Position numbers and translations under genes: made by a program
Part shown: positions 7,301 to 37,778 of the stretch, in pieces
Numbering within the stretch: position 1 is the stretch's first letter
How the letters are laid out: the number at the start of each line of letters is the position of its first letter
Notes under the pieces: model-generated
Told to the model about the DNA's origin: nothing
What the model saw: the letters and a program-made list of their open reading frames with translations, nothing else
The model's database searches: none
NCBI GenBank assembly: GCA_947650365.1
Contig: OX393550.1
Location: 68,441,744 to 68,505,743, forward strand
DNA: 64,000 bases
From: Chamaelirium japonicum
Lineage: Eukaryota; Streptophyta; Magnoliopsida; Liliales; Melanthiaceae
Reading direction: 5' to 3'

Positions 7301-9704
7301 TCTTCTAAAGAAGGCCTATATTAAGCACTAAAGGCTTTGCCTTTAATCTTGATCCCATCCTTTGTCTCTTGGAAATCTTCTTAGAAGTTCTGCGTTTATC
7401 ATCTCTAACTTGTTAAAGCTAAAGTCTCTGATAACGCCTTCGAAGGTTCCAGACAAGGATGCAAGACAGACGTCTTCCACCACCTCGTCATCTGGTACTA
7501 TGTCTTTGGAATCTAGTTCGATCTGGAACTCAAAGATGTGTTCCCGAACAAGCATACCCTCAGACATCTCGGTACCGACAAGTATCTTAGTGGAAAAGCG
7601 ATGAGTCGACTGATTTCGCCTTCCAGACATCTAATGCAAGTAAAACTTAATTAGAGAAGACCCGGCATATCTCTGACTCGCTTCTAAAGAGTTGTCCGCA
7701 AGTCTGCTATAACATAGCACTTGCACATCTCCTTAGACTCTCGCCAGTCTTTATATGCCCTAGTTAGTGCCCTAGTGATATCTCGACCCATTAGGTCTAA
7801 TACAGGGATACTTAGATTACATGCCAATATACGTTTTTACTACCCTATGCATAAGCTAAAGAAAGTGCTTCGGCTCTACGTAGTTAGAGACCCGATAACT
7901 GGTTCTCTTATGGGATAGCGGATAGGGGAACTATATGGTTGAATGAAAATGAATGCAAAATAACTTATTTTATGGATTTTGAAAACAAGCTAATTATATC
8001 CAAATGCCAACGCTACCCTCACAGCGAAGACACCTCTATGGATTAATTTAACCATGTATGTAATATCTCAGAATAGGCTGCACCTGTCCGAGGGGGCAGT
8101 GTGCAGGTCATCCGCTTACACGGGTCTTTCCCTTGACCCTATCCAAATCTGCCAACTAAGGGCTTTGATGGACCATGGTTATTTTTTGGCCAGTACCACG
8201 TGATCACCATTGTCTTCGCAACGAATACCTCACGTGTACTTCGGATGCTTAACCACGAGCCTAGGTAATTACGGAACGGAAGTTCTAACGGCCCTCACGA
8301 GGGTGAGTAAAAGCCTGAACCCTTGGCGCCGTAATCGTCATATCCTGAGGGAGATCACTAAGTAGCTTGGCATGGAAAAACACAGCTCTCACTCGAGGGG
8401 GTTGTTGAGTTATACCCTCCCACCCGAGCACGAAGTGATTGGCCGTGTAGGCCAGAGGATCTCTAAAAGTCCTTTCTTGCACCCCTTATTAAATTTGAGG
8501 GTTATTTAATGCAAGTATGAGTGTACACTAAGGTCACGACAACCTATACACTAGACCCTGGTCATACCGTGCTCCCACTAGCGTTTCAAGCCTTTCGCGA
8601 AGCATTAATCGATCTCGGAATATCATAGTCCCTGCCTCGAGTGGATTTCTCCACTCAAGGGTCACATTACATATCCCAAGAACATCGATGCTTTGCAAAC
8701 TTGGCTATTACGCTAATGCCCTGGAGCCTAGCCTAAGGTCAGACTGACATGAAAGGTCGTCCACTACCATGGCGTCTCGCTTATAAATTTGACGAATGAT
8801 GTCATAGTAGAATTCCAACTCATTCTAGGTTTCGATGCTTGCCAAATAGGCACACCCGACTAATCGGGTGTTGACCTAATGGGGGCATAACCAAATGTAA
8901 GGAATTCATGCTATCATCAAGGGTCAATTAAATAATAGGTGTCACTAGTGGAATCCTATCCTAATAAGGTCGCTAGGACCCGAGGGGAAAGGGCATCCCT
9001 CTAACACAGATAATCATATTATTACATCGGGGTTCTCTACAGAAATATAAAGAACTACTGAAAGAAACAAGCACACAACTGAATCAAGTTCAGGGTTCGA
9101 CCCCTGAACCTGACTGGCACAGCGCAGGCTCTCTGTCTCCTTCGCAAGGCTCCTCGATCCGGTGCAAGCCTCTGTATACGATCTTCTGACGCTTTCTGCC
9201 CTTTGCCGTCATCGTGTACGCTTCGCCGGATCGCCATCGTCCTCCAAGGTTCCGCTCATCTTTCCAGTGGTGGATCTCCACGGCAAGTCCTCATCTTCAA
9301 TCTGTAACCGAAAAAGATCTAGTACGCTTCGAGCAAGTGTTCGCTCGTACACAATTTTCTAGAAAGAAAAAGAAAACAAACCTAGCAAAAGCCTGAGAAT
9401 CAAGGGTGGTAAATCTTCACCTCTTGCCCGACTATGGCTCTAAAATCTATCCACACACAAAAGAAAAAAAAACATCCAGACAAAATCGCTAATACGGGGT
9501 CCGACCCCCGGTAGCAAGCAATCACATATCCAGAATAATTTTAGAAGCGACGCCCTGCAAGAACGATTCATAGAACACACAAAAAATATACTATGCATGA
9601 TCTACTCGTAGAACCCCGATGGCGGCACATACTATTCATACGCGCACATGACGGTTTCATGAAAAACATGAAACGCACACCACTAACCTGGCTCTGATAC
9701 TAAT
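4312..9704 (-). mobile_element. A1 internal region with decayed copia coding remnants
   Basis: Read on the minus strand, the order from right to left is as follows. The primer site is at 9690-9704. A long leader at about 7930-9690 is shared with A2 and with C. Gag-like remnants lie near 7340-7630 (a LSGTFEGV-like stretch matches C's gag LSGAFEGF). Integrase remnants lie near 6050-6800. Reverse transcriptase and RNase H remnants lie near 4330-5500; a YVVLYHNDILLIENDV stretch corresponds to C's LYVDDILLIGNDV. No long open frame is left. The region is 5393 bp, against 5381 bp in A2, and carries the same decay, so the defects predate both insertions. Confidence 0.82.
5659..5922. repeat. 132-bp tandem duplication inside A1
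   Basis: Two consecutive copies of a segment starting GAAGCTCCCACTACTTC begin at 5659 and 5791, a period of 132 bp. The same two-copy arrangement with the same period is present in A2 (about 44844-45107). The matching place in C (about 20210-20340) has a single copy. The duplication is therefore a derived marker of the A family. Confidence 0.88.
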
Positions 9705-12032
9705 TGTTGAAAATAAATCCATGGCAGAGGCCCGCAGCGGAAGCAAAGTGATAGGTCCGAGGACCGTAGGCGGTGTGCGTTACATATCATAATTTTCATC
9801 GAAACGATCTACATATGCATGTATGAAACTAGCATGACAACTACGCGAACCCCTAACGACGATCTAACGCAAAAGAACAATCTAGCATGTATGCATGTTC
9901 TAATTATATTAGATCTACTTGTTAGAGATCATACCTGCGTGCGGAATCTTTCACCGCGGCAAATTTCTTCTTTGTCGATGGAGACAGGCTACGGATCTGC
10001 TCGACATAGCTTCGGTGTGACAGCCATAACTTTCTGCTCTGAACTCCGATTGGGCTAAAATTTGGACTGCAGGTAACCAACTTCGAGACGCAACTTTTCC
10101 AATAAGTTTCACGTCGTTTGGACTTCTGTAGCTCCCGAAATCACAGAAACAACGCTGATTTTCTGTGCAGATTCTAGACAGCAAAAGGTTGCGGGAGACG
10201 CCTTCTAGTTCACCCGATCTCACACGATGCACGGCACCTCGTCGATGGATCTCTGAGTGCCTCCATACGACGAGCCTTCTCCTTCTATGAAACACCACGT
10301 GAGGAAGACGAGTCGCCATCCAATGGCGCAAGCGAGGGAGAAAGAGACGAGAGAGAGGATGCGAAGAGAGAAGAAGGGCTTCGGTTTCCCCATGGCTTGC
10401 ATGGCCAGCCCTAGGGCTTGCCCATGCATCTAATTTCGTGCCCTCTCTCTCTCCTTCTCATATATAGGGCCGGCCTATCCATATGGATAAGGACAGTATG
10501 GATAAGGATGATTGATTCAAACCTTATCCCTATATATCACTTCTTTATCTCTATCCTTTCCTTGTTTTCAAAAACGGTCAAAACCAGCCCGTTTTCTGCG
10601 CCTCATAACCGGCCCCTTCATCGGAGGCAACAACCTTCCGAAACTAATGGGGCCGGCCTTGACCAGTCTCTCAACACTTAGGGCCGGCCCCCTTAGTGCA
10701 TAGTGGCGCATGGTATGACCAAAACGCCTTTATGCCACTAGTTGGCCGTTCCTCGTGTACGAGACTTTGCAAGGCACACATAAGTGAAGTGCACCAGTGA
10801 TTTCACTATTCTCTGAGGTTCCCGTAGGGTGCCCGTAGTGAAGTCAACTAGTCAACTCGCAACATGTCCCGGTGCATCGCACCCATGTGGCAAAGTCCAC
10901 TTATGGCAAGGAATTGCTACATGCGTCTCTGCACTAACCTAGGGTTTCCCCTTAGTGCACACACATAGCTACGCATCTACCGTGCACTAGTGCGAAGCAC
11001 TCATGGAGCGTATGCTTGGACTTCTCGCTTCCTCTAACTATGTTCTGTGTTTCGAGGAGATGGTATAAGAACCATACATAATATCGATAAGGTGGAACCT
11101 TCAGGGACCAGGGTTCATGGCTTCCAACTCAGACTCGATCGACACACTACCCGAGTGTACCATCGATCCTCTGAGTCCGAGTTAACCTACGTAGCCACCC
11201 AGAGTGCGACGTAGGCTGCACTCCAATTCCCCCGGACTTACTATGTTCTCCCTCATACCCCTGCTCTCCGCTTAGTATGGTAAACTCGCTGTCCCTCCAC
11301 TGGTGCCATGATGCAACTCGAGCAGTGGAGAATACCGTCAGACTCGAGTGCTCATATGACTCGGTTCCTTCCAGGTTGACCACATACATCGTATCTCCGA
11401 TTACTCTTTCGAGCAACCGGATCCGTCACCAGTCCAACTGATGACCACCTGGCCAGGGTTTAATACGACGTAGGTCAGACCAAGGAATGCACCTCCCGTT
11501 AGGGGTGTGGATAGCCTGTAGGAGTGACATGCTGATGCAACGCCAGCCGGGTAACCCAGTACACCGTGGTTTTGGATCACTGCATCCGGATCCTCACACA
11601 TTGGTGCGCCAAAGCACCACACAACTGGTTAGTCCACCAGACATGGTTCCTCAGGGTTTAGGACCGTTTTACCCTAAGCAGAAACACGGTTTAGTGCACT
11701 GGTGTCTGCTCACCTATCTGTGCACCGTGTTGGTTCCGTTCGGCCACAGACACTGTGCCTGGTAATGACCGTGGTGGAGACACCCACGCTCTGTCATCCC
11801 AACAGCTTAACCTGATAGGGCGACCAACCCTAATCAGAGCTGCGAACGTATTTAGGTTACATGGGACCAGTCCCTTGAGTCTCCCACTCAAGAGGATTAC
11901 CATGTAGCCATGGCTCTCTGTTCTGTAATCAGAACACGTACTAAGGTACGTACCAATATGCAATCCTATACTATCAACCATACATAGCTAAACTATAGGT
12001 TTTACGAGCTGTAGACCTCACCAATTCTAACA
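9705..12032 (-). repeat. A1 5' LTR (right copy)
   Basis: The LTR is 2328 bp and nearly identical to 1984-4311. It ends in CAATTCTAACA at 12032, and the primer-binding site lies directly to its left. A TATA-like CTATATATG is at 10459-10467 (minus strand) beside GGGCCGGCC. This LTR would drive minus-strand transcription of A1. Confidence 0.92.
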
Positions 12033-20504: not shown

Positions 20505-21734
20505 TGTGGTCGCGGAAAAAGATTCGGGTCGTCTTTATTGCGGATCACACGAGATTACAAATTTTCTTTGATCAGGAGATTGTGGGAGAGATCCTCTGGA
20601 GGGTCCCTTTGATCCGCGTCTCCACGTGGTATTCGTGCGAGAGCTCTGAAGGGGTTGCCCAGGACAGAGGTCTTTACAGGGTGAGGGTTTTTGAGAGGCT
20701 AAGGAGTTTCTGCCGTTGATTTTGTCCCGTCCGTGCTTCGCGCTTTCTCGGCTAGGGAGGCCTTGGGCTTCGTTCCTCGGTCTTCGTGTCTTCCTCGGTC
20801 CTTGCTTGACCTCGACGTCCTTGATCGTCGGTTCGCGGCGTCGATCGTGTTTTTGGCGTCAGCTTTGGCTTTAGCTTTCGGCTTTGGCGTAACTTTGGCG
20901 TGGCTCTGGCGTTTGCTTTGCTTTGGCGCTTGCGCTTGAACGTAAGCGGGTAAAGGCTTGCGATGCTTTAGTTCTTCCGGACTTCACGTCGTATCGGCTA
21001 GAACGTGCGGTGCTTTGCTCGTGACCGTCGTAGTTGCTTGGCTTTGGCACGTGCGTTGCTTTAGCGCGGGCTTTACCGGGGCGTTTGCTTTGGCTTCTTG
21101 CGTCGGCTTTGACTTTAGCTTTGACTCGATCTTCTTCTCGAACGACTGGCGTTGCTTCTTCAAGGCTTCTTTCTTCTTCCGACTTCCTCGACGGTTGTGG
21201 CGTCGGCTTGGCTTTTCGGTGGGGGTAGCACCGATCTTCGTGCGATGGTTGTAGTGTCGACTTTTGTTGATGAAGATGGCGGGGGTAGCACCGGCTTCGG
21301 CACGACGGTTGTAGCGTCGGCTTTTGGTTGACGAAGGCGGCAGGGGTATCACCGGCTTCAGGCTTTCTTCTCCCGGCTTTCTTCTACGTGCAAGGAGTTG
21401 ATGCCTTTGTTGAAGACGACGGGTGTTGTCGGCTTCGATCTTCTTCTCCGGCCTTTGCGTATGGCGTCTTCGGAGCTGATGAAGATCGTTGGAGCAATCG
21501 GGTGATGACAGCTCCGGGTCTTCTTCTCCAAGCTTTCTTCTTCGTGCGAGGAGTCGAAGCTTTGATCTTCGAGTGCAAGGTCTTCACGTTGATGAGGACT
21601 TGAAGGGTCAAGGACTCCCGTAGGATATGCTTGCCGTGCCTCGTGAAGCCTTCGGTCTTCAAGCGTTGGAGCTTCTTCGTAGCGCTCTTTCGTCTTCAGC
21701 TTTTCGGACCCTTGATGCCTTCCCCGACCCCTTC

Positions 21735-21744
21735 TATTTATAGG
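21735..21744 (-). promoter_or_regulatory. Putative TATA box in D left LTR
   Basis: CTATAAATAG on the minus strand is a textbook TATA element in the sense direction of D. The identical box is at 36723-36732 in the right (5') LTR, where it would drive the genomic transcript. Confidence 0.6.
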
Positions 21745-22383
21745 CAAAGGGGGCGGTTGGGGGAGATATTGCTGAAATCTTTTTGTTTCCTCCAATATCT
21801 CCCCTCATAACCATCGAGATATTGTTCCTTTATTTGGGGAAACAAACCCGATTTCCTCCTTTTTAGTTGGAGTGGTTATGGGCTAGATGTGACTCGATCT
21901 TTAAAGATCGAGTTGTTATTCTTGTTGCACTTTTGGATCGGATGGCGACGCAACGTCATCTTGTCCGTTGGATCGAGGGATCGTCGCGGATCTACGGCTA
22001 CGTAGACGTCCACGCCACCTCCCCCCGCATCGAGGCGGTTTTGATTTCTTTTTTCTTTCTTTTCTTTTTCTTGTCTTTTTCTTTTTCTTTTCTTTTTCTT
22101 TTTCTTTTTCTTTTCTTTTTTTTTTCTTTTAGGGCCGGCCCCACCTCTCCATGAAGAGGGGGGCACGGTTTTCTAGAAGGGCCGGCCCCACCTCTCCATG
22201 AAGAGGGGGGCATGGTTTTCTAGAAGGGTCGGCCCCACCTCTCCATGAAGAGGGGGGCACGGTTTTCTAGAAAGGGGGCCGGTGGGCCCCCCCCCCCTCT
22301 TTGTGTCCGAGTTGCGGGTCCGGTGGGACCCGTTTGCTTTGGGTCGGGCCATGGCGCGCGAATTGAGTTCGCACGTGGGCCTA

Positions 22384-22640
22384 GTTCGCACGCAGGCCGT
22401 TGTGTGCGGGCCGAGTTTCGCATACGGGCCGTTATGTGCGGGCCGAGTTTCGCATACGGGCCGTTGTGTGCGGGCCGAGTTTCGCATGCGGGCCGTTGTG
22501 TGCGGGCCGAGTTTCGCATGTGGGCCGTTGTGTGCGGACCGAGTTTCGCATACGGGCCGTTGTGTGCGGGCTGAGTTTCGCATGCGGGCCGTTGTGTGCG
22601 GGCCGAGTTTCGCATGTGGGCCGTTGTGTGCGGGCCCAAG
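22384..22640. repeat. 32-bp tandem array in D left LTR
   Basis: About eight copies of a 32-bp unit (GGGCCGTTGTGTGCGGGCC followed by GAGTTTCGCAT plus two variable bases). Copies differ mainly in the last two bases and at a few C/T sites. The same array with a similar copy number is at about 37370-37625 in the other LTR. It lies at the start of the LTR in D's sense direction, where U3 regulatory repeats are usual. Confidence 0.9.
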
Positions 22641-22870
22641 TTGCATGAGCGAGTCGGGTTCGACCCGAAGGTCATCGAGTGCAAGCCCATTTTTTGTGTA
22701 CAAATCGGGTTCGACCCGAAGGCCGTTGGGTGCGGGCCTATTTTTTTGTGTAAAAATCGGGTTCGACCCGTGGGCTAATTTCGATGCCCACAAGTGCCCC
22801 CTCAAGTTCGAGTGCGCCCGCGGGAAACGCGTAGCGGTTGGACTTGAGTCGCGTATTCGTGGGATTAGGT

Positions 22871-22880
22871 CTTTAAAAGG
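22871..22880 (+). promoter_or_regulatory. TATA-like element of the antisense unit
   Basis: CTTTAAAAGG stands about 85-95 bases upstream of the first ATG in this stretch and before a CTAGGGTTT motif common in plant 5' leaders. This is motif evidence only. Confidence 0.3.
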
Positions 22881-23073
22881 ACCCCTGTTTTTCGTTTCTC
22901 TTCATTATCAGCGATTCCCGGCGGCTTGGAGGCGAGGGCTCTGCTAGGGTTTCTTGCTTCGCAACGATGCCGAGGAGGATGAAGATGGTGACGCCATGGG
23001 GTTCGCGGAGGAGGGAAGATCGCCGGCCCGTGGACGGCGGAGGGTTGCCGGCGAGGTGATTCTTCTCCTCCTC

Positions 23074-23104
<31 letters not shown>

Positions 23105-23659
23105 TTCTTCGCATGGTGCGGGAGGGCACGACGGGCGTGACCGGGGGCTGCTGTGGCGGCCGGCGCGCGGGTTGGAGGCGTGGGAAGGCACGAGTCGGAG
23201 GGTGCGAGGCGCGGGTGCGGCCGGGGGCTGCTGTGGCGGCCGGCGCGCGGGAGGAGGGCGGAAGGGCGTGGGAGCCGGAGCCGGGGGCGGCCGGAGGCGC
23301 GGGGGCTGGCGCCGTGGGCGCAGCGGGCGGCGCGGGGGCTGGCGCCGTGGGCGCAGCGGGCGTGGGCCGGAGCGGCACGACGCCGAGGTCGGGCTGGAGC
23401 GGCCGGGGTTACGGGCTGGAGCGGCAGGGCGCGGGGGCAGCGTGGCAGGGCGCGGGGGCCGGAGGCGGGTGCAGCGGGCGTGGGGCCGGGTCCGCGGGGC
23501 GCGGTGGGCGTAGCCGGAGCCGGGCGCAGCCGGGGTTGCGGGGGCCGGAGGCGGGTGCAGCGGGCGTGGGGCCGAGTCCGCGGGGCGCGGCGGGCGTAGC
23601 CGGAGCCGGGCGCAGCCGGGGTTGCGGGGGCCGGAGCCGGGGGTGGAGGCGGCCGGTGC

Positions 23660-24050
23660 AACAGCCCCCCCTCCTTTACGTGTTTTAATAGGAGAGGATG
23701 GGGTCGTGGCTTTTAGCCATGACCCCCCTCTTTTTATTCTTATTTGTTCGAAGGACGAAAGCCCCCCCCCCGTATGTTTTGATAGGAGAAAGAGAGAGAG
23801 AGGGGGTTGCGGTTTTTTGCCGTGACCCCCCTCTATCTTCTTTATTCGCACAAAGCCCCCCCCTGCTATTTTTAACAGGAGAGAGAAGGGGGGGTCGTGG
23901 CTTTTTGCCATTACCCCCCTCTGTCTTTCTTTATTTGCTGAAGGCCCCCCTTTAATAGGAGAGATAAGGGGGGGGTCGTGGCTTTTTGCCATTACCCCCC
24001 TCTGTCTTTCTTTATTTGCTGAAGGCCCCCCCTTTTGATTTCTTTGTTTC
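23660..24050 (+). repeat. Tandem repeat of about 95 bp with an internal hairpin, in D
   Basis: Four to five imperfect units run in a row. Each has a C-rich run, TAATAGGAGAGA-like spacer, then GGGGTCGTGGCTTTTTGCC with its near-complement ATTACCCCCC, then CTTTATTTGCTGAAGG. The last two units are almost identical. Each unit can fold into a stem with a short loop. It lies just upstream of the putative 3' splice site of the antisense unit. Confidence 0.8.
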
Positions 24051-24098
24051 TGTACTCGGAATCCATCTGACTAGGGCTTTGTGTTCTTTCTTTTTCAG

Positions 24099-27000
24099 AT
24101 CTTGTCATTACGAGAGCTTTCCGAGTTCCGGCTGGATTGTTGATGCGGTCTCCCACGGGAGTACGTACCTTCGCTTCCCCTTCGCGCAAGTCTCCCATCA
24201 CCGTGCTTCGAGACAGGAGACCGGGCTGTCAGTGCTTCAGCTTTTGACGCACGAGCGAGTTTGCGAGGATAGTGTGACCGACGGCTCTTGTCGAGTGTTA
24301 AAACTTGGCGAGCGCATCCTTACTGACGAAGGGTCTTCCCGGCAAATTGTCCGGCCGAGCTTGGGGTTACCGTTTCACCATACTGGAGATGAGTCAGTTC
24401 CGGTCCCTGTTGTTGCTTTGAAGATATGTTCCCGCCGTACGCGATGGGGTGTGGGGATTCAATCGCGTGGAGATGTCACCTATCTGGGAGGTTTCCGGGA
24501 CTGGATGAAAGAGCTATCCAGCGCATTGGAGGCAGAGCCAGGGATGGAGCGTTTGGCGAGGTTTGTGGAGCCAGCTTGTTGGGAGTACAGTCGACCGGAC
24601 GGTATGTACCGGGCTCTGTGTGAGCAGTGGTGCCCCGAGACCAATACCTTTTTGACTGGAGCTGGTGAAATCGGGATCACCCTTCGTGATGTGCATGTCA
24701 TCTCTGGGTGTCCAGAAGTTCGAAGCTATTATCAGGAGGAGGTTCCTTCCCTGGAGGTTTTGACGGACCCAGATGAGTCTCCTAGCTTCTGCCTTTTGCT
24801 TTTTAAGGCGTATGCTATTATAGCGGCGCGCGAGCGGTCAGACCGGGTACTTCACTCGGATTGGGTGGACTTCTGGTTTCGAGGAGAGTATCGTCACGCT
24901 CCTCCTTCGAGTCACCCGATGTGGAGATATGCCTCGTCAAAGAGGCCGGCGCCTGGCACCTTCCGGCGACCGATTGAATCTCTGAAGAAAGAGTGGTGCT
25001 CCATGGCCGGGGCGCAGCGTCCCTGGGAAGTCTTGGGGCTTGAAGAGTGTAGTGATGACTAGCGTGCTGTTTACTGGTCAGCGGGGTTAGTACTCTTCCT
25101 CTGCCGCTTTGCTTTACCCTGGGAAGGGGATGTGGTACGCCCTGGGACCTTCCTTGCAGCTGCTCGGATGGTGACTGGAGAGTTCCTTAATCTGGCGCCG
25201 GCGATCCTCTGCTCGTTGTATGGCGGGCTTAGCGGCACTTATTGGAGTCTATCGAGTGCGGGTATGCAAGAGGGGAAGTAGGCAGAGCCAGTTCCTTTTG
25301 CCCCCTGCATTACCTCTATGGTTGGATTGGGCTCCACTTTCCGAAGGGGATCTTCACGGCGCGTGGACCTTCGACCTCGGTGCCCTTTCTTCCTTGTGTG
25401 GGAGGTGTAATGAACGCTTTTTATGCATGGGAGCGTCCGAAGCTTAGTGCCCGAGAGTGTTTACGGCGCATGGGCCCCTCTGACTTCGAATTTGTATCGG
25501 AAAATGCACTGGCGCCTTCTATGAAATCCCTGGTGTGCGATGGGGCGGAGATGTCCGATCCTTTGTACTGGAGCATGGTGAGTTGCAGGCCTGGGTATCT
25601 TGTTTGGCACCGTGGGGATGTAGTGGAGGTGGCCCGGTACTCTCCCCACCGGTTTGCTCGTCAGTAGGGTTTTCGGCAGGAGTTGCCTGGGACTCCTTTG
25701 CGCCTGCGGTTACGTTACACTCCGCAGGAGGCGTACCGCCTCTGGGGAGCACTTTACGATCGTTTTACTGGGTGTACTTTCTCACCGGGGATTAAGTCGG
25801 GCGGCAAGGATGCCGCAACTCCTGAGTATCGTCGCTGGGTCAACGGGTCAGTGCTTCCCCTCTTGGCTGGCCTTCCGCTAGACGTCCTTGCTAGCAGCGA
25901 GCGGGCTGACTTTCCTTTTGACTCTTTGGCGGGGTCAGAGGATCGTCGTCTTTGGTCCAAGGAGCGATGGTCAGAGAACTCTTGTGGCCGCCGAGAGAGT
26001 ACTTCCCAGGCTTCACTTTCTGTGCAAGAAGTTGAGATGGTTCCGTCCTCCAAGGTTCAGAGTCTTCCTGAGACTCAGGCTTCTTGGAGTGGGTGTGCTT
26101 CTCCCAAGAGGAGAAAGTTGGACCTCTTGTGTGAGGCAGCTTTGACTGGTGCTGGCGAGGCAGGGCCAGCTCGAGACAGAGAGCCAGGGCTTTTTGTCGA
26201 TGGGGTAATCCCTCCTTCTGGGGTATCTTCATCGGACACTGCAGGTATATCTTGTTTTTAGTTTCTCATGAATTTCTGTGCTTGTATTCTTACTTCGTTG
26301 GCTGAGTTGTCCAGCTCTTATTTTGGCAGGGTCTGCTGGACCGAACTGCAAGTCTGCCCCGAAGGGGGTTGGGCAGGAGTGCTCTCCTATCAGAGCAACG
26401 TTGATTGAAGGTGGCGGACTGGATGTTCCCTGGGATAACTTGGAGCTTTTGAGAGCGTGTGGAGCAGATTTTGCCGGCAGTGCTGTCAACCTGGATGATA
26501 TTGACGTGGAGCAGTTGGGCTTTGGGGAGGAAGATGAGATCTCCAGTGTAGGGAGAGAACAGACTCCTCCAGCTAGGTCCGGTACCCCGGCAGAGGCTAC
26601 TCCCGCAGTCGTTTTGTCGGAAGGTTTGCCTGTGCCTCCTCCTTCGGCTCCAGTGGTTCCGCTGACTGTTGTCACGGCGATGGTCCAGGAGGCGGTTCCT
26701 TCACTTGAGCCTTCAGGGCCGGAGCCCACCTTGCCCGTGCGCTCAGAGGCAGACAAGAGAAAGTACAGTTCGCGGGACCTTCTCTCTGTGCTTCTTTTGG
26801 AGAGCTGTCGAAAGTATATCCAGACGACGCTTGCACCCTTCCAGGAAGAGGGCTTTGCCGTTTTGAGCAGCTGGTGGGTCCTCGAGGGGCCTGAGTTTTG
26901 CAAGAGTCTGGCGGCCTTCCAGGTAGATGGCTCTTTGTTTGAGACACAGATGCGTATTCTCTTGGCGGATAGTGAAGCTCATTGCTTGAAACGGGCTTCG

Positions 27001-27303
27001 ATGGAAGATGACCTCCCCCTGATACTGGCAAAGGCCGAGGACGAGGAGCGTCGACTGGAGGCGCAGCATGCACTTGCCACTGCGAGCCTTGTTCGGGCGC
27101 GGAAGAAGCTAGAGGCTGCCCGCGCATCTTTCGAGAAAGCTGAGACGATCGAGGAGTCTTCTAGAGCAGACCTGGCGAAGCAGCGTATCGAGCTGGCGAC
27201 ACATCGGGAGCGGGTAGCTTCTCGGTCTTCAGAGTTGGAGCGCATGGAGGTTACTGACGGCGAGCTGCTCCAACGTCTCAAAGGATTTGATTTGCTTTAC
27301 TAG
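24099..27303 (+). mobile_element. Antisense gene-like unit in D: plant-mobile-domain-like region plus coiled coil
   Basis: This region is coded on the plus strand, opposite to D's gag-pol and convergent with it. The first part (about 24.1-25.7 kb) resembles the plant mobile domain (aminotransferase-like, PF10536 type): WCPETNTFLTGAGEIGITL, RDVHVISGCPEVRSYY, then DWVDFWFRGEY. A serine/proline-rich linker follows. The last part (about 26.9-27.3 kb) is a strongly charged heptad-like helix (RRLEAQHALATASLVRARKK, ERVASRSSELERMEV). Canonical splice signals (CAG/GTATAT near 26.24 kb and TTTTGGCAG near 26.33 kb) bound a short intron-like gap. Antisense extra reading frames between integrase and 3' LTR are known in Tat-lineage elements. 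The unit has a few breaks. Function is unknown; it may be a captured host gene. Confidence 0.65.
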
Positions 27304-27559
27304 CATGTCACATTTCCTTTTCTTTCTTGTCATTTCTGCTGAACAGACTTGTAGTTCTGCTTTTCTTTATCTGGTGATAACTTAATATCATGCATCTATT
27401 TTTTCTTTTTTGGACTTGTATTCTGGAATGGCAGAGCTTGGTTGTGTTTTTCTTTTGTTTGGACTGAACCTTTACAGGCTGCCTACGTACCCTACTGAAA
27501 GGGATCAAGTCACACGTAGTTCCTTTTTTTTTTTTTTTGCAAGGAATGTAGCCCTGCTT
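27304..27559. other. Spacer between convergent antisense unit and D pol
   Basis: This short T-rich region lies where the plus-strand antisense unit and minus-strand integrase both end, so it would hold both 3' ends. It includes a run of about 17 T near 27521-27538. I see no gene in it. Confidence 0.5.
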
Positions 27560-29755
27560 TTAGGCATAGTACCTTTTGAGGTACTTGCCATTGATGGGGC
27601 CGAGTGTAAGCCCTTCTGGCGTGGTGAGAAGATATGCGCCGTTGGAGTAGACCTCTTTAACAGCGTGCGGTCCATCCCATTTGGCGTCGAATTTCTTTCC
27701 TCCTCGATGTGAAAGGATGATGGGGCGTTTGACTGCAAGTACCAATTCTCCTTTTTGGAAGGATCGAGGGCGAATCCTTTTGTTGAAGGCTCGAGTCAGC
27801 CTGGTTTGGTAGCATTCCAGGCGTTGTTGGGCTTCGAGGCGCTTATCATCCAGGGCTTCCAATTCTGCTAGACGAAGTTGAGCGTTGTCGCCATTGACGA
27901 GGCCTTCCTGGACGGCTATCCTGAGTGACGGGATCTGGAGTTCAAGTGGGAGGACAGCTTCTACTCCGTATACCAGCGAGTATGGAGTCGCCTGTGTTGG
28001 CGTGCGAAAAGAGATGCGATATGCCCATAGCGCTTCACCCATGCGTTCATGCCAGTCTTTCTTCGACTTTGAGATGACTTTCTCCAAAAGTTTGCAGAGT
28101 GTTTTGTTGAAAGCTTCAGCTAGGCCATTGGCAGAGGCGTTGTACATGGTTGAACACTGTTGCTTGATATCGAACCTGGCGCAAAATTGGCTGACGGCGG
28201 CGTTCTTGAATTGCTTCCCGTTGTCCGTAACGATATAGCGAGGGATGCCGTACCGAAAGATGATGTCGTTCTGGATGAAGTTGATGACAGAGTGCCTGGT
28301 AACTTCTCACAATGGTACTGCCTCAGCCCATTTGGAGAAGTAATCTGTTGCCGCCAGGATGTAAAGATGCTGCTTGGACGACTTGGGTAGCGGACCGACA
28401 ATATCAAGTCCCCATCCATCAAAGGGCCATGATGCGATGGTTGGATGCAGAGGTTCGGGAGGCTGACGGATGTAGTCGCCATGCAGCTGGCAAGTGTGGC
28501 ATCTTTTTGCAAACTCGAGGGAGTCTTTGATCATAGTGGGCCAGTAGTACCCCATCCGCCTGATGCGGAAGTGCAGCTTTGGACCGGACTGATGTGAGCC
28601 ACAGATCCCGGCATGGACTTCTTCTAGTGCCATTTCCGCTTCTTCTTTTGCAAGACACCTCAGGAGCGCACCATCGTAGCTTCGACGGTACAACTCGTTG
28701 TTGAAGTGGAAGAATTTCAGAGACCGCCGGCGAATGTCGACCTTACGCTTTGGGTCTTCAGGAAGCTTTCCGTGGACAAGAAAGTCTATGAATGGCTGTC
28801 TCCAGTCTAGCTCGTCGGTCACGAAAACGTGTACTGTATTGACTTGGTCCGGGATTTTCATAGGGAGGTCCTCTTCGGTGATCACCATTCTCTTACAGAT
28901 AGGGATGATGAGTTGGCTTTTTTCTGGGAACGGAAGTGTAGCCGCCAAATTTGCAAGCGCATCAGCCTGCTGATTGAGGTTTCTGGGAACATGCTGGATT
29001 GAAGCATCTTTGAGTGTACCAAGGAGTTTCAGGGCTCGTAGGTGCAATGGCACGAGATCTTCTTTGTTGACCTCGTATGCCCCCAATATTTGCTGAATGA
29101 CGAGTTGAGAGTCGCCGAAAACTGTGAGCCCTTGAAGTTTCATATCATTGGCGAGTTCGAGGCCAATGATCAGAGCTTGATATTCCGCCCTGTTGTTGGA
29201 GCATGGCTCTGATAGTAGAAACGAGAAGGGAAGTACTTCGTCGTTTGGTGTGACGAAGATAACTCCCGCTCCTGCTACATCTTGCCTGGCCATACCGTCG
29301 AAGAACATTTTCCAAGAAGGGGCGATGTCGATGCAGAATACTTCTTCGTCTGGGAGATCTTCTGATAGTTCCCATTCTGCTGGAAGGGGGTATTCTGCTA
29401 GGAAGTCTGCGAGAGCTTGACCTTTGACCGCTTTACGAGGGACAAAGGTGATGTCAAACTCAAGGAGGAGCAAAGCCCACTTGGCCAGACATCCGGAGAG
29501 CACTGGTCTCGACATGATGTATTTGAGTGGGTCGGCTTTTGAGATGAGCCTGATGGCGTGAGCTAACATGTAGTGTCGCAGTTTTTTTGTAGCGAAGATG
29601 AGCGCCAGACAGACCTTCTCAATCGGGGAGTAGTGTAGCTCCGCGCCGATGAGAGTACGGCTCAAATAGTAGCATGCTGTTTCCTTGCCTAGCTCGTTGT
29701 CTTGAGCCAGGAGTGCCCCCAAGGACTGTTCCTGGGCGCTGATGTAAAGGACCAA
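27560..29755 (-). mobile_element. D pol: RNase H, second RNase H and integrase
   Basis: On the minus strand from right to left, RNase H (LGALLAQDNELGKETACYYL, YSPIEKVCLALIFATKKLRH) is followed by the archaeal-type RNase H (FFDGMARQDVAGAGVIF, NNRAEYQALIIGLELAND, GDSQLVIQQIL). The integrase zinc-binding region comes next (EEVHAGICGSHQSGPKLHFR, KRCHTCQLHGD). Then come the catalytic core (GLDIVGPLPKSSKQHLYI, ATDYFSKWAEA, NGLAEAFNKTLCKLLEKV) and a C-terminal KGELVLAVKRP segment typical of Ty3/gypsy integrases. The double RNase H places D in the Tat lineage. Confidence 0.92.
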
Positions 29756-29827
29756 TGGCTTTCCTTGGACTGGTGCTGTCAGAACCGGGGGCTTGAGTAA
29801 GTAATCCCTTATGTTTTGGAGGGCTTC

Positions 29828-31340
29828 CTAACAAGCTTCATCCCACTGGAATGCTGCTCCTTTCTTCATGAGGCGACTGAAGGGCCTGCATTTTCCAGCT
29901 AAGTTGGCGATGAACCTTCTGATATATGCTAGATGGCCCTGTAGACCTCGGAGGTCTCGCACGGTTTTCGGGATTGGCATATTGAGGATAGCATCTATTT
30001 TGGATTGATCTATCTCGATGCCTCGATGGCGTACGACAAAGCCGAGAAACTTTCCCGAGGAGACCCCAAATGCGCATTTAAGCGGGTTCATGCGGAGCTG
30101 GTACCTTCGAAGTCGCTTGAAGATTAGCTCGAGGTCTTGAAGATGTGTTGACTTTTGTCTTGATTTTACCACGAGGTCGTCGACGTAGCATTCTATATTC
30201 TGATGAAGGATATCGTCGAAAATTTTTTGCATGGCTCGTTGGTAAGTGGCTCCTGCATTTTTCAGGCCGAAAGGCATGACTTTGTAGCAGTAGATCCCTT
30301 TTGGCGTGCGGAATGCCGTAAGCTCTTCGTCTTTGGGCGCCATCCGGATCTGGTTGTAGCCCGAGGACCCATCCATGAAGGTTAGTGCTTCATGGCCTGT
30401 TGTCGCATCCACCATTAGTTCTGTGATTGGCAGTGGGAAGTCATCTTTGGGGCATGCATTGTTTAAGTCCCTGAAGTCCACGCATACTCTGATCTGGCCG
30501 TTCTTCTTCTTGACTGGGACCACGCTGGAGATCCACGTTGGATACTTAACTTCTCGGATAAAGCCGGCTTCAATGAGCTTGTTGACTTCGCCCTCTATTT
30601 GCGGTACCAGCTCCGGCCGGTAGCGTCTTTGTTCTTGCTTGACGGCGCTAGCTCCATGCCTGACGGCAAGCTGATGTACTGCAATCTTGGGGTCAAGTCC
30701 GGGCATTTCCTTGTAGGACCATGCGAAGACATCTCTGTATTCTTGGAGTAGCCTGATGTATGCAGCTTCCTCTTCGGGAGTTAGGAGTGCACTTATGAAT
30801 GTAGGCCGAGGATCCTCTTGCGTACCCAAGTTGATTTCCTTCAAATCGTCGACGGTAGATTGCCCCCCTTCTTCGAGGACCGGCGGGGCGTCGAGCAACT
30901 CGTCGTCCGAAGTAGAAGATGCGTCGATTGGAGAGTCGGAAATGGTGATATGATTAACAGAGACCATGATTATGTCGGTGATGTCGCCAGTTTCGTAGAA
31001 TGATAAGGGTGGGTGGGTGGGTATGATTTTTCTCACCTCAGTGGGTGGCTTTCCCAAACGGTCGAATACTGACCTTTGCTTTGCTTGTCTAATTGGCCCA
31101 AGTCTTTTGAATACTGATATGGGATTTTGACTTGCCTGGTTTTTGATGCTCTTCTTTTGCTTTTGAGGTATGGTCCGACGCCGAGCTCGATATCGCCTTC
31201 TTTTGGCGCCCTTTGTACCGGGATGAATATTGGTAGAGTGTGCATCGGAAGCTGACGATCCCTCTTCCGCTTCATTCACCAACTTCACCTCAATGTAGTT
31301 AGAGGTGAAGGTCTTCTCTCCTGTTATCTTGATGACCACC
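29828..31340 (-). mobile_element. D reverse transcriptase
   Basis: On the minus strand this shows the Ty3/gypsy RT signature: YPTWISSVVPVKKKNGQIRV, CVDFRDLNNACPKDDFPLP, FMDGSSGYNQIRMAP, FGLKNAGATYQRAMQ, CYVDDLVVKSRQ (catalytic YVDD) and FGVSSGKFLGFVVRHRGIE. An N-terminal extension is rich in acidic and serine residues. It lies between protease and RNase H as expected. Confidence 0.95.
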
Positions 31341-31366
31341 GGGGTTTGACGAGAGCCGATGCCTCG

Positions 31367-32330
31367 CTAATTTGGTGGTATCTGCTCGCCACCCTGGAGT
31401 AAATGGGCTTGAGTCTTAGTCATCCCGTGTGGTATTGGAGCTGGCAGGAGCGTACTCATATGTGCAGCACTGCCTTCGTCGTAACCAGCTTTGAACAGCA
31501 GCTTGGCAGTATTTTGCCCCCAGCTTCCTTTTGGCTTGAATGTGAGTTGGCTGGATTCGAAGGGATTGATGGGTTTTGGTGAACTTGAAGCTTGCCCCAG
31601 GCTGGGTAGTGACAGTGTCATCTCTTGCAGAGTGATGACATTAGCTTCCGATAGCGGCTGGACCATCCCTTTTGGCGGGGCAAAAGGTGGTGGTTCATCT
31701 TTGCGAAGCCACTGAGGTGTGAGGCGTAAGACTGTCGTAGCTTGGGCAGGTAATGGAGTGTGCTTCATGGATCTTGGCTTGGAGCTGATGCGCATTCTTC
31801 GTCTCGGCGCTAGCACTTCTTTGACTTCGTGTATCGCCTTAGATGGTGGTACCGAATTTGGAGTTGGCGGAGCTTCATCCTGCTCCATACTTTTAGCTTT
31901 CTGAGTTCGAGGAGTTTTAGCTGGAAGGACTTCTGCAACAAGGACCTTTGCTTGGTAAAATTTGGCATCGGCGAGGTGCGCTTCAGCCTCATTGAATGGC
32001 TTATCGTCTGCAACAATGCACTTTTCCAGACCTTCCTCGTAGTACTTGAGGCATTGGTGCCAGGTAGACACTACGACACCGTTTTCGTGCAGCCACGGTC
32101 TTCCCAGCAAAAGGTGATATGATGTTTGACAGTCAATGACGTGGAAAAGAACCATCGTGTCAAGCTGACTGATAGAGAGTTTTAGACGAATGATCCCTAT
32201 GGTGGACTGTCCTCCTTGGTTGAACCCTTGAATGACCAGCTGGCTTTGTGAGAGCTGGTCGGTGGTGATGCCGATCTGGCGCATTGTTTGGATAGGCATG
32301 ATGTTGACGGCGGAGCCGTAATCCAACAGG
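31367..32330 (-). mobile_element. D protease region
   Basis: On the minus strand a retropepsin-like active-site segment (DYGSAVNIMPIQTMRQIGIT) is followed by the usual downstream GRPWLHENGVVVSTWHQCLK segment seen in Tat-type proteases. A long linker toward RT follows. The retroviral-type protease matures the polyprotein. Confidence 0.8.
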
Positions 32331-32389
32331 ATTCGATTTACCGGCTTCTCGTTGATGTATCCCGAGACATAGACAGGTCGATTGTGCAG

Positions 32390-33060
32390 TCATGTTCCGA
32401 GCTGCAGATCTTCGTCTGAGAAAGTTATTGCTGCGTTACATGAGACAATAGTTTCGTCCTTCTCGGCGTTTTTCCTCGTTCTTTTGTAGCTGTCTGGGTC
32501 TGTCAAAGCCTCGGCCATTGCTATGCGAGCTTTCTCTGGGAGGTATAGTGCTTCTATGAGTGGCAAGTGTAGAATTGCCTCATCGTAAGCGGCAGTGCTT
32601 TCTTTGTCGGAATCATCCTCATCGTTGATGGTGTTGCTTTCTTTGGAATGCTTGATCCTATCTTCTTCTTCCGGCGCCACATGAATCTCAACCATGCAAC
32701 AGGAGGCTTCGTGCAGCTGATCAGCTGGGAGGAAGTAATCGGGGAAGAACTCTTGCAACGTTGCCGGTTCCGGGGGGTTTTGCAGGAGGAGATCATCAGG
32801 ATCTGCTGGCGGTACTTTGAATCCCCTCCTTCCTGGAGCTTTGCTTTTCTTTTTGTAAGTTCTTCGTTCCGGAAGCTTTCTTGTTACTCGATCGAACTTG
32901 CGACTTCTTGGCATCCATGGCCTTCGTCTGCGAGGCAACACGACCCATGCATCTTCATCAGTGGATTCTTCGTTACCAAGGTGAAGCTCTGGAGTGGGAG
33001 TGGTAGGTCCTTCATGGGTCGGGGAGACCTGCTCCTCTGGGGACATTGGTGGTTCGCCTT
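32390..33060 (-). mobile_element. D linker between gag and protease
   Basis: This minus-strand segment is acidic and proline-rich, with an RRRRPWMPRSRKF basic patch and a DEAILHLPLIEALYLPEKA stretch. I cannot name a domain. It sits between the gag and protease parts, as in other large Tat elements. Confidence 0.6.
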
Positions 33061-33416
33061 CTGACTCCCAACCGGTGGGCTTGATTTCTTCTATTGAGAC
33101 AGACGAAGGTTTGGAATAGAGGACGTAGTAGTCGAATTTACCTGAAGGCTGGCCTAACAGACCGTCCTCCGGGTCTCCTTGCTCGTACCTTGTCTGGAGA
33201 TTTGTGGGTTCTCCATGAGTCGGGGAGCCTTGCTCCTCTGGGGACCTTGGTGGTTCGCCTTCTGACTCCCAGCCGGTGGGCTCGATTTCTTCTATTGAGA
33301 CAGGCGAAGGTCTGGAGTAGAGGACGTAGTAGTCGAATTTACCTGAAGGCTAGCCTAACAGACCGACCTCCGGGTCTCCTTGCTCGTACCTTGTCTGGAG
33401 ATTTCGTTGGGACATA
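33015..33416. repeat. About 201-bp tandem duplication in D
   Basis: Two consecutive copies of about 201 bp carry the same landmarks. GGGTCTCCTTGCTCGTACC occurs at 33171 and again at 33372, and GGTTCGCCTTCTGACTCCC occurs in both copies. The copies are very similar, so the duplication is recent. It lies at the gag/linker boundary. Confidence 0.85.
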
Positions 33417-35421
33417 GCTTTGTTTGAGAGAGACGTCGATGTAGGCGACGGTTGCCCCCAGGGCAGTGACGTTTCTTTCTCAGCGAGCTTAGGAGCGTAC
33501 TGTTGTCGTCTTGAGATCTTCCGTTGTGGAGCTAACTTCGCAATTGGCCTTTGACGATTGATGCGCAACTTGGGCCTTCTCTGGTGGGTAGCAACGAGTA
33601 TTGGTTGAAACGAACCGAAGGTGATGGATGTCATGTTTGCCGTTGCAACGTCGCTGGAGTCGATCTCGATTTTTTCTTGCTTTGCGAGTGCCATGATCTT
33701 CTCTTTGAAGACGAAACACTTCTCAATAGGATGGCTGACCAGCCGGTGGTATTTGCAGAAGAGCGGATCGTTGACCCGATGCATATGTTCGGGCCTTTTT
33801 GAAGGAGGAAGCTCGATCATCTTTTCTTGTAGCAGTTGATCGAATATGGAGGAGACTTCCGAGTCTGGAAATGGATACTCTTTGGCCTCGAGTTCTTCTA
33901 GAGTCATCTTCGACTGTCTTTGGGGTGGAGGCGGTGGTATGGCAGCTCCCTTTTCTTGATCCGACTTACCGCTGATTTTGAGTGGCTTGGAGGCCGAGGC
34001 GATGTCGGCGACGTTAACTTGCTTTGATTTGGGTGCCGGCGGTTTGTCTTTCTTTTCCTCCTTCAGGAAGTCTTTGGTCTTCGAGTCCCCGCGATTTGTT
34101 AAGCTGAGCTCCATGTCATGGGCTCGAGTTGCAAGTTCTTCGAAAGACCGAGGCTTGATCCCCTTGAGGATGTAGAGTAAGCCCCAGTGCATGCCTTGGG
34201 TGCACATCTCGATAGCCGAGTCTTCCGACAAACGGTCTCGCGAATTCAGGGCGAGATTCCTCCATCAATCGATGTAGTCGATTACTGATTCGTCCTTCCT
34301 TTGCTTGACGGCAGTAAGCTCGATCATGCTAACGATGCACCGAGTGCTGTAGAAGTGGTTGAGGAATTCCCTCTCCATCTGATCCCAGCTGTCAATGGAT
34401 CCTGGAGGAAGATCAACATACCAGTCAAAAGCATTACCCTTGAGTGTGCGAACGAACTGCTTCACTATCTCATCGCCGTATGTGCCGGCGTTGTTGCAAG
34501 TTTCGACGAAGTGGGCAATGTGTTGCCTTGGGTTCCCCTTTCCGTCGAAGTGTTGAAACTTTGGTGGCTGGAACCCGGTAGGGAAGCGCAGCTGCTGGAT
34601 TCTTGCGGTATAAGGCTTTGAGTATGCCGCCGTGATCGGAGGTAGGCTGCCGCCGTGGGAACGCATCATGTCAGCCACCAGTGCTTGTATTTGCTGGGCA
34701 TTCATCGTTGCTGTCACTGAAGGTTGCGCGGCTATCGAGACCGGCACGGGAGCCGAGGAAAGTGCAGGAGTAATTGCTAGTGTTGCCGGGCCAACTTCTG
34801 CAAGAGCAGGAGTTGGAGACGGGGCTGGAGCAGCTACTGGAGAAGCAGGAGGTTGACCGAATGTTGCGACATCCCTGGCACTCAGCCTCTGAAGCAAGGT
34901 GTTGATGTGACGATCCTTTTCTTCCATTAGTCGGATGAACTGAGCCATGTGTTCACCCATTTGCATGACTTGGAGCTGGAGAGCGGACGGAGGATGATGT
35001 CGCAGGACGTCTCGATGTTGCACGCCCGCACCCTCGCCATCGTCGTCGGAGACGTAGTTACGTTGACTTGCTTCTGCTTGATGACGGATGTTTGCCCCCA
35101 GCAAGGGAGGTGCAAAGTCCGCTGGAGAACCCGAACGGGCTCGGGGTTGGGGCTGGTCCTCCCCAAATTTCTGGACAGATGTTCCAGGATTGAGGCTCGT
35201 TTCTTCATGCACCAAGGCCTCATTGGCGCCTTGGCGGGCATCTTCGACAGCAGTTTCTGGCGTGAAAAGTCCGCAAGAGTTTGAGTACGCCGAGTGTAGA
35301 CGCGTACTACCGGGGGAATGACATCCTCCGGATTTTCTGGATCACCGTGTTGGAGTAGTGGAGACTCGGCGATAGGTGAGAGGCTTGTTGGAGCAAACGT
35401 ATCGTCGTTCGTTCCGGCCAT
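33350..35421 (-). mobile_element. D gag
   Basis: On the minus strand gag begins with MAGTNDDTFAPTSLSPIAE, close to the primer site. A proline/alanine-rich region leads into the retrotransposon gag domain (FPTGFQPPKFQHFDGKGNPR, AFDWYVDLPPGSIDSWDQME, FLNHFYSTRCIVSMIEL). Further on a zinc-finger-like CKYHRLVSHPIEKCFVFKEK stretch is followed by a basic tail. Gag forms the virus-like particle. It is mostly readable with a few breaks. Confidence 0.88.
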
Positions 35422-35469
35422 GGCGAACTTGAAGCAACTCCTTCAAATGTATGGATGAAAGGAGAGGAG

Positions 35470-35493
35470 GTCCCCCTGGGCGTGCCAGAAATC
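35470..35493 (-). promoter_or_regulatory. D primer-binding site
   Basis: On the minus strand GATTTC then TGGCACGCCCAGGGGGACC follows the 5' LTR directly. TGG matches the complement of a tRNA CCA end. I cannot assign the tRNA from memory. Confidence 0.7.
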
Positions 35494-37778
35494 TGTGGTC
35501 GCGGAAAAAGATTCGGGTCGTCTTTATTGCGGATCACACGAGATTACAAATTTTCTTTGATCAGGAGATTGTGGGAGAGATCCTCTGGAGGGTCCCTTTG
35601 ATCCGCGTCTCCACGTGGTATTCGTGCGAGAGCTCTGAAGGGGTTGCCCAGGACAGAGGTCTTTACAGGGTGAGGGTTTTTGAGAGGCTAAGGAGTTTCT
35701 GCCGTTGATTTTGTCCCATCCGTGCTTCGCGCTTTCTCGGCTAGGGAGGCCTTGGGCTTCGTTCCTCGGTCTTCGTGTCTTCCTCGGTCCTTGCTTGACC
35801 TTGACGTCCTTGATCGTCGGTTCGCGGCGTCGATCGTGTTTTTGGCGTCAGCTTTGGCTTTAGCTTTCGGCTTTGGCGTAGCTTTGGCGTGGCTCTGGTG
35901 TTTGCTTTGCTTTGGCGCTTGCGCTTGAACGTAAGCGGGTAGAGGCTTGCGATGCTTTAGTTCTTCCGGACTTCGCGTCGTATCGGCTAGAACGTGCGGT
36001 GCTTTGCTCGTGACCGTCGTAGTTGCTTGGTTTTGGCACGTGCGTTGCTTTAGCGCGGGCTTTACCGGGGCATTTGCTTTGGCTTCTTGCATCGGCTTTG
36101 ACTTTAGCTTTGACTCGATCTTCTTCTCGAACGACTGGCGTTGCTTCTTCAAGGCTTCTTTCTTCTTCCGACTTCCTCGACGGTTGTGGCGTCGACTTGG
36201 CTTTTCGGTGGGGGTAGCACCGATCTTCGTGCGACGGTTGTAGTGTCGACTTTTGTTGATGAAGACGGCGGGGGTAGCACCGGCTTCAGCACGACGGTTG
36301 TAGCGTCGGCTTTTGGTTGACGAAGGCGGCAGGGGTATCACCGGCTTCAGGCTTTCTTCTCCCGGCTTTCTTCTACGTGCAAGGAGTTGATGCCTTTGTT
36401 GAAGACGACGGGTGTTGTCGGCTTCGATCTTCTTCTCCGGCCTTTGCGTATGGCATCTTCGGAGCTGATGAAGATCGTTGGAGCAATCGGGTGATGACAG
36501 CTCCGGGTCTTCTTCTCCAAGCTTTCTTCTTCGTGCGAGGAGTCGAAGCTTTGATCTTCGAGTGCAAGGTCTTCACGTTGATGAGGACTTGAAGGGTCAA
36601 GGACTCCCGTAGGATATGCTTGCCGTGCCTCGTGAAGCCTTCGGTCTTCAAGCGTTGGAGCTTCTTTGTAGCGCTCTTTCGTCTTCAGCTTTTCGGACCC
36701 TTGATGCCTTCCCCGACCCCTTCTATTTATAGGCAAAGGGGGCGGTTGGGGGAGATATTGCTGAAATCTTTTTGTTTCCTCCAATATCTCCCCTCATAAC
36801 CATCGAGATATTGTTCCTTTATTTGGGGAAACAAACCCGATTTCCTCCTTTTTAGTTGGAGTGGTTATGGGCTAGATGTGACTCGATCTTTAAAGATCGA
36901 GTTGTTATTCTTGTTGCACTTTTGGATCGGATGGCGACGCAACGTCATCTTGTCCGTTGGATCGAAGGATCGTCGCGGATCTACGGCTACGTAGACGTCC
37001 ACGCCACCTCCCCCCGCATCGAGGCGGTTTTGATTTCTTTTTCCTTTCTTTTTTTTTTCTTTTCTTTTTCTTTTTCTTTTCTTTTTCTTTTTCTTTTTCT
37101 TTTCTTTTTTTTTTCTTTTAGGGCCGGCCCCACCTCTCCATGAAGAGGGGGGCACGGTTTTCTAGAAGGGTCGGCCCCACCTCTCCATGAAGAGGGGGGC
37201 ACGGTTTTCTAGAAGGGCCGGCCCCACCTCTCCATGAAGAGGGGGGCACGGTTTTCTAGAAGGGGGGCCGGTGGGCCCCCCCCTCTTTGTGTCCGAGTTG
37301 CGGGTCCGGTGGGACCCGTTTGCTTTGGGTCGGGCCATGGCGCGCGAATTGAGTTCGCACGTGGGCCTAGTTCGCACGCGGGCCGTTGTGTGCGGGCCGA
37401 GTTTCACATACGGGCCGTTGTGTGCGGGCCGAGTTTCGCATACGGGCCGTTGTGTGCGGACCGAGTTTCGCATGCGAGCCGTTGTGTGCGGGCCGAGTTT
37501 CGCATGTGGGCCGTTGTGTGCGGGCCGAGTTTCGCATACGGGCCGTTGTGTGCGGGCCGAGTTTCGCATGCGGGCCGTTGTGTGCGGGCCGAGTTTCGCA
37601 TGTGGGCCGTTGTGTGCGGGCCCAAGTTGCATGAGCGAGTCGGGTTCGACCCGAAGGTCATCGAGTGCAAGCCCATTTTTTGTGTACAAATCGGGTTCGA
37701 CCCGAAGGCCGTTGGGTGCGGGCCTATTTTTTTGTGTAAAAATCGGGTTCGACCCGTGGGCTAATTTCGATGCCCACA
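35494..37778 (-). repeat. D 5' LTR (right copy)
   Basis: The LTR is 2285 bp and about 98.5-99 percent identical by eye to 20505-22792, with the same TATA box (36723-36732), pyrimidine tract, GGGCCGGCC units (37120-37265) and 32-bp array. The right-flanking ATGGC is the second half of the target duplication. Confidence 0.93.

Follow-up and report, generated by a model that had tools for sequence, protein, structure and literature searches.

A putative multi-exon antisense gene with a plant mobile domain in a Tat-lineage retrotransposon of Chamaelirium japonicum

The locus described here raises the question of whether a long terminal repeat (LTR) retrotransposon of Chamaelirium japonicum, here named D, carries a separate gene on the strand opposite to its gag-pol, and what such a gene would encode. 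D lies in a window of 64,000 nucleotides (assembly GCA_947650365.1, contig OX393550.1, positions 68,441,744 to 68,505,743 of the forward strand), to which all coordinates refer unless a locus is named. An antisense unit opposite gag-pol had been proposed in an original prediction made from the letters of the window, and its strand, place and parts were confirmed. The plus-strand unit begins at the inner border of the 3′ LTR and terminates with a stop codon at 27301-27303, and the next minus-strand frame ends at 27560. It is likely to be an antisense accessory gene of a Tat-lineage, probably Ogre-type, element, with at least three exons and encoding a plant mobile domain (PMD). From the sequence, transcription and splicing of this gene are likely.

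Four successive long plus-strand frames were found between pol and the 3′ LTR of D. The first of them matched the Pfam family PF10536 (1e-9, 38.5 bits versus a cut-off of 34.9), so that the resemblance to a PMD noted in the original prediction held in a profile check. Two relatives in which the frame is open gave 5.1e-17 and 1.6e-16 (62.5 and 60.9 bits). A frame of 693 codons from the same genome (L001) contains a full-length PMD (332.6 bits to PF10536), and the profile of the exon that holds the domain, exon 2, aligned with it in three collinear blocks (169-206, 328-380 and 511-536); because of these blocks, most of the PMD seems to be present in a divergent form. The best match of the exon 2 profile to another PMD locus had an E value of 2e-8 (set of 48 sequences); of six further PMD loci, four matched weakly over one block, one fell below the inclusion threshold and one gave no match. 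A search of solved structures with the same profile returned no sequences at E values up to 1. Exon 2 additionally contains a SPKRRKLD stretch, retained in most of nine rows compared, which we take to resemble a classical nuclear localisation signal, and from such basic stretches the nucleus is the more probable location of the product.

For the comparison of gene models, 40 copies of the region were fetched from the same genome; these are the top-ranked matches and not a random sample. The exon alignment (24040-27320) consists of 38 copies and D, i.e. 39 rows (L019 and L048 were excluded as lacking most of the region, and L031 is partial), while the exon 1 set holds 35 rows (L010, L019, L025 and L031 without a match, L032 and L037 incomplete). 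In the model given in Table 1, the two bases left at the end of exon 1 receive the third base of their codon from exon 2, and one base left by exon 2 is joined by two bases from exon 3, so that the phase fits at both junctions. The GT donor and the AG acceptor of intron 2 were each kept in 38 of the 39 rows. The first in-frame ATG of exon 2 lies about 136 codons into the exon in D and in eight of nine rows compared (L043 has one at codon 22), and therefore an upstream exon is likely. The leader with a TATA-like box that had been proposed was recovered as well, since the TCTTTAAAAGG and CTAGGGTTT motifs upstream of exon 1 are family-wide, with the counts given in Table 1.

Evidence for a protein-coding gene comes from the distribution of variants among the copies. 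Variants in one row (singletons) were taken as mostly post-insertion, and variants shared by at least three rows as mostly arisen in source elements; those present in exactly two rows were not counted in the tests of exon 2, exon 3 and reverse transcriptase (RT). Exon 2 had 137 synonymous, 38 non-synonymous and 2 stop changes among its shared variants, versus 104, 206 and 10 among the singletons (Fisher P 6e-22), and the singleton spectrum gives a neutral expectation of 2.17 for the ratio of non-synonymous to synonymous changes. In the two alternative forward frames, these shared variants gave ratios of 7.1 and 6.0. The constraint peaks at codons 131-390, the PMD part (58 synonymous, 3 non-synonymous shared), and fades toward the linker (14 and 14 in codons 586-715). 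Codon-model omega, with all branches taken together, was 0.25 for the PMD core, 0.35 for exon 2 and 0.75 for exon 3. Exon 2 has been under strong purifying selection in the source copies; codon-level constraint across family copies had been proposed as a test in the original prediction. This indicates that the PMD coding function was selected during amplification and, because the PMD is under selection in source elements, that the protein helps the element to multiply; the benefit presumably comes with some preference for the copy producing the protein. As a yardstick, RT (19 copies and D, 20 rows; L063 yielded no RT) had 5 synonymous to 1 non-synonymous shared variants, which are few events in the same direction. 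Exon 1 had 6 synonymous and 4 non-synonymous shared variants, too few for a strong coding test. Third-position diversity in the same 20 rows was 0.056 for exon 2 (24100-26243) and 0.026 for RT (30035-30514); this roughly twofold difference may reflect an exchange of antisense regions between elements, or sampling.

Table 1. Features of the antisense gene, of element D and of the antisense gene of a second family.
Feature	Position	Strand	Description
TATA-like box	22870..22880	+	TCTTTAAAAGG in 22/22 covering rows; putative promoter element
CTAGGGTTT motif, presumed 5′ leader	22944..22952	+	33/34 covering rows
Exon 1 (proposed)	22967..23055	+	ATG, 29 codons and 2 bases, arginine-rich peptide; stop-free in 35/35 complete rows
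Intron 1 (proposed)	23056..24098	+	G+C-rich, repetitive; donor GT/GC, acceptor CAG
Exon 2	24099..26244	+	N-terminal region, plant mobile domain, linker with PKRRK; 715 codons in relatives
Intron 2	26245..26329	+	85 nt, GT-AG
Exon 3	26330..27303	+	323 codons and stop; helical C-terminal half, possible coiled coil
gag-pol of D, convergent with the antisense gene	27560..35421	-	Pfam gag, RT, RNase H, RVT_3, H2C2
Element D (LTR retrotransposon)	20505-37778	-	TG..CA ends and 5-bp duplication ATGGC on both sides
3′ LTR of D	20505..22792	-	LTR pair 98.56% identical
5′ LTR of D	35494..37778	-	LTR pair 98.56% identical
Transposase_28 antisense gene, split-looking example	L077:1797-3000	-	domain exon, 137-nt exon and coil exon of 182 codons, in matching phase

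The expectation that D itself carries a working gene was not upheld. Its exon 2 contains one private frameshift (a length difference to all 38 copies) and two in-frame stops, one of which also occurs in two other copies. Because of the frameshift and the stops, the antisense gene in D is a pseudogene; the gene is open in part of the family. Besides the frameshift of D, seven indels were found within 24099-27303 among the 38 copies, each in a single copy, and the five alternative frames of exon 2 contain 13 to 30 stops per row.

Several results weigh against the three-exon gene. Of the 39 rows, 16 have a fully open exon 2 and only 13 have both large exons open. The shared variants of exon 3 (28 synonymous, 39 non-synonymous) are indistinguishable from neutral (P 0.10) and do not differ from its own singletons (P 0.64), although shared stops in exon 3 are absent; exon 3 is the least constrained part of the antisense gene. 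Of the 35 complete rows, 16 have a GT donor at intron 1 and 19 a GC donor. With up to three mismatches, the spliced exon 2-exon 3 junction was found nowhere in the 1.5 Gb genome (0 forward, 0 reverse), versus 376 places (183 and 193) for the unspliced border of exon 2 and intron 2, and the genome thus gives no independent trace of splicing. Finally, the AlphaFold model of exon 2, built with nine close copies, had a pLDDT (predicted local distance difference test) of 28.8 and was unusable.

The canonical splice motifs of the original prediction stood for intron 2; for intron 1 the GT donor was confirmed in part of the rows. GC-type donors of intron 1 retain the G at +5 and the T at +6, which belong to the donor consensus, and the acceptor is pyrimidine-rich with CAG in all 31 rows displayed (of 39); by its sequence, intron 1 is plausible rather than shown. 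GC and GT donor forms for one presumed intron coexist within a single retrotransposon family. A CpG-rich first block of the gene had also been predicted; the bin 23001-24000 has 70% G+C, but in the three-exon model it is nearly all intron 1 and not a coding block. The same presumed intron (23056-24098) carries, besides the G+C-rich block, an 81-bp tandem repeat.

The predicted coiled-coil end of the product found partial support. AlphaFold placed a helix at residues 201-276 of exon 3 and more helices up to residue 322 (mean pLDDT 51, ten-residue blocks up to 85), and a simple heptad score of the exon 3 end was reached by 70 of 500 shuffles, i.e. it does not go beyond shuffles. The end of exon 3 is modelled as helical and is possibly a coiled coil. 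A profile of exon 3 found no match in six other PMD loci.

The most probable alternative is that the gene consists of exon 2 only, as a simple antisense open reading frame (ORF), with exon 3 as a separate or decaying ORF and the introns unused. The contrast between strong constraint in exon 2 and nearly none in exon 3 would be expected under it, as would the missing spliced retrocopy, and other Tat elements are described with single ORFs (PMC11963269, PMC7264820). It is nevertheless unlikely, given the position of the first ATG deep in exon 2 and the borders of intron 2 with their matching phase. Moreover, exon 3 is open in 35 of the 39 rows, while its other forward frames contain 8-18 stops and its reverse frames 2-12, and the coil exon of a second family of antisense genes is constrained.

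This second family is characterised by the Transposase_28 domain, which gave 137 matches in the same genome, two of them confirmed as PF04195. Fifteen loci were analysed (L077, L078 and L080-L092; L079 was omitted, and L080 and L091 stop short of the last-exon end); shared variants were here defined as present in at least two rows, and the P value of the coil exon was computed against its own singletons. The Transposase_28 exon ends at CAG/GTATCT or a near variant, with the donor GT in 15/15 loci, and is followed by a short intron, an exon of 137 nt, a second short intron and a last exon of 182 codons. The 137-nt exon has an AG acceptor and a GT donor in 14/15 loci each, and the acceptor of the last exon is AG in 14/15; the phase is kept at both junctions as we read them. 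In 13/15 loci the last exon runs in frame and stop-free as far as covered, and its heptad pattern was matched by only 2 of 500 shuffles. It has 62 synonymous, 39 non-synonymous and 2 stop changes among shared variants versus 81, 100 and 1 among singletons (P 0.009). The end of the Transposase_28 exon gave a similar contrast (42 to 28 shared versus 34 to 46 among singletons, P 0.035), and the 137-nt exon, with 15 to 14 and one shared stop, gave no constraint. In L077, one of two loci examined, the gene faces a convergent integrase (rve and H2C2). In L078 a gag-like frame (2-823, plus strand) was seen by eye beside the Transposase_28 gene, where the integrase would be expected; this locus is perhaps a deleted or non-autonomous element. 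Between the last exon of D and the Transposase_28 coil exon no similarity was detectable. Two families with unrelated main domains thus have antisense genes that seem to contain introns and whose last exon is helical or a coiled coil.

A recent capture of a host gene by the D family is very improbable. PMD proteins are also encoded by hosts (PMC5418596), and the 693-codon frame with a full PMD occurs in the same genome. The PMD of D is, however, distant from the 14 other PMD loci read, as is evident from the best E value and the weak one-block matches given above, and the PMD is a reported trait of Ogre/Gypsy elements. The gene had been regarded as captured; because PMD genes in Ogre/Tat elements are already published, with a PMD in the extra ORFs of 57% of Ogre elements (PMC6317226) and two PMD clades (A1/A2) that are exclusively Gypsy-encoded across angiosperms (PMC5418596), it is not a new capture. 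That the antisense RNA rather than a protein matters, by double-stranded RNA control of the element, was proposed for such units (PMC7264820) and would suit a unit convergent with gag-pol and within the span of its transcript, but the selection on amino acids in the PMD core makes it exceedingly improbable; as the sole function an RNA role is unlikely, and it could coexist with the protein.

The element itself was assigned from its minus-strand domain order: gag (PF03732), RT, RNase H, a second RNase H (RVT_3) and the integrase zinc finger (Integrase_H2C2), of which RT_RNaseH, RVT_3 and Integrase_H2C2 share one frame. In Ogre and Retand elements of the Tat lineage, RNase H and integrase are separated by a second RNase H (PMC6317226), and because D has one at this position, D is a Tat-lineage Ty3/gypsy element. 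Within this lineage it is probably Ogre-type, as the PMD-bearing extra ORF, a frequent but not universal Ogre trait, is present, and PF04195, known from Retand antisense ORFs, was found neither in D nor in two relatives although the genome contains matches to it. No Pfam match to the integrase core was obtained in D; the minus-strand frame ending at 27560 is taken as the end of the integrase, judged by its place and by eye and without a Pfam integrase match. The gag-pol of this copy is broken across several frames. Across 2287 sites, the two LTRs of D show 29 transitions and 1 transversion (K = 0.0133), corresponding to an age of about 0.5 million years at a substitution rate of 1.3e-8 per site per year. 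The 29:1 excess of transitions is as expected from the decay of methylated cytosines, and a 32-bp tandem array is located inside both LTRs. D is inserted in a copia-like element, as seen from homology on both flanks, and a 10-kb stretch that is part of nested repeats occurs twice in the window (1984-12032 and 41163-51198, 94% identity).

If the three-exon gene is real, its transcription would start from a putative promoter immediately internal to the 3′ LTR. The first exon would be short and basic, the second long and PMD-encoding, and the last, a helical one, would end tail-to-tail with pol. The genomic RNA is the minus strand, and because it is the opposite strand, the introns of a plus-strand gene are not spliced out of the transposition intermediate. 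An intron-containing gene could in this way be carried by the element through every round of copying, and the presence of 376 unspliced and no spliced places fits introns that stay in the genomic RNA. The product may act in the nucleus and sustain transcription of the element, either by competition with the host PMD module (MAIN/MAIL1 with PP7L) or by recruitment of that module; this is our best guess at a function and is offered tentatively. The role in host silencing that had been suggested would likewise follow from analogy with the host PMD proteins MAIN and MAIL1.

In a wider view, we lean somewhat towards the idea that angiosperm Tat antisense ORFs are exons of one multi-exon accessory gene, with domain exons first and a helical or coiled-coil exon last, in at least two lineages (PMD and Transposase_28), and that antisense placement lets a retroelement keep real introns. 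If a single spliced gene has these ORFs as its exons, annotation by ORFs has fragmented its proteins, for example by counting Transposase_28 and Smc-like ORFs apart, and full-length proteins and transcripts become direct search targets. With the selection test used here, constraint acting in source copies can be told apart from post-insertion decay, and a PMD that aids multiplication would connect transposon-borne PMDs with the silencing module of host PMD proteins in a testable manner.

Descriptions of antisense ORFs in Tat elements date back to the 1990s, with the function of these ORFs unsettled (references in PMC7264820), and the PMD is the commonest uncommon domain of plant LTR elements (PMC9289625). 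Antisense Smc-like ORFs are known (PMC11963269), and a search for antisense and spliced transcripts has been called for (PMC7264820). No account of introns in antisense Tat genes was found in the literature searched, outside of which lay most subscription papers, including a 2011 survey of extra ORFs and the gene23 paper; the word intron is absent from the available texts of PMC11963269 and PMC7264820. The multi-exon structure and the similar plan in the unrelated Transposase_28 family are what is new here, and the exon structure may be undescribed.

Compared with the PMD ORFs of Ogre/Tat elements (PMC6317226) and the Gypsy-encoded clades A1/A2 (PMC5418596), D has in common PF10536 in an extra ORF and the second RNase H; unlike the ORFs as described there, the ORF of D would be one exon of three, with a helical last exon. 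Transposase_28 is found in Retand (PMC6317226), whose ORFs are, like the gene of D, antisense and located between pol and the 3′ LTR (PMC11963269); the tandem arrays present there resemble the repeats of intron 1 in D, whereas D has no PF04195 and that paper counts ORFs singly. Gene23 of Grande, likened here by description only, is also antisense and is reported to be transcribed from its own promoter and to have a nuclear product (as told in PMC7264820). The MAIN/MAIL1/PP7L module of Arabidopsis, with its silencing role of MAIL1 and MAIN (PMC5418596) and PP7L as their partner (PMC7156037), shares the PMD with D; MAIN and MAIL1 are host genes of clade PMD-C, unlike the element-borne PMD of D (PMC5418596, PMC7156037).

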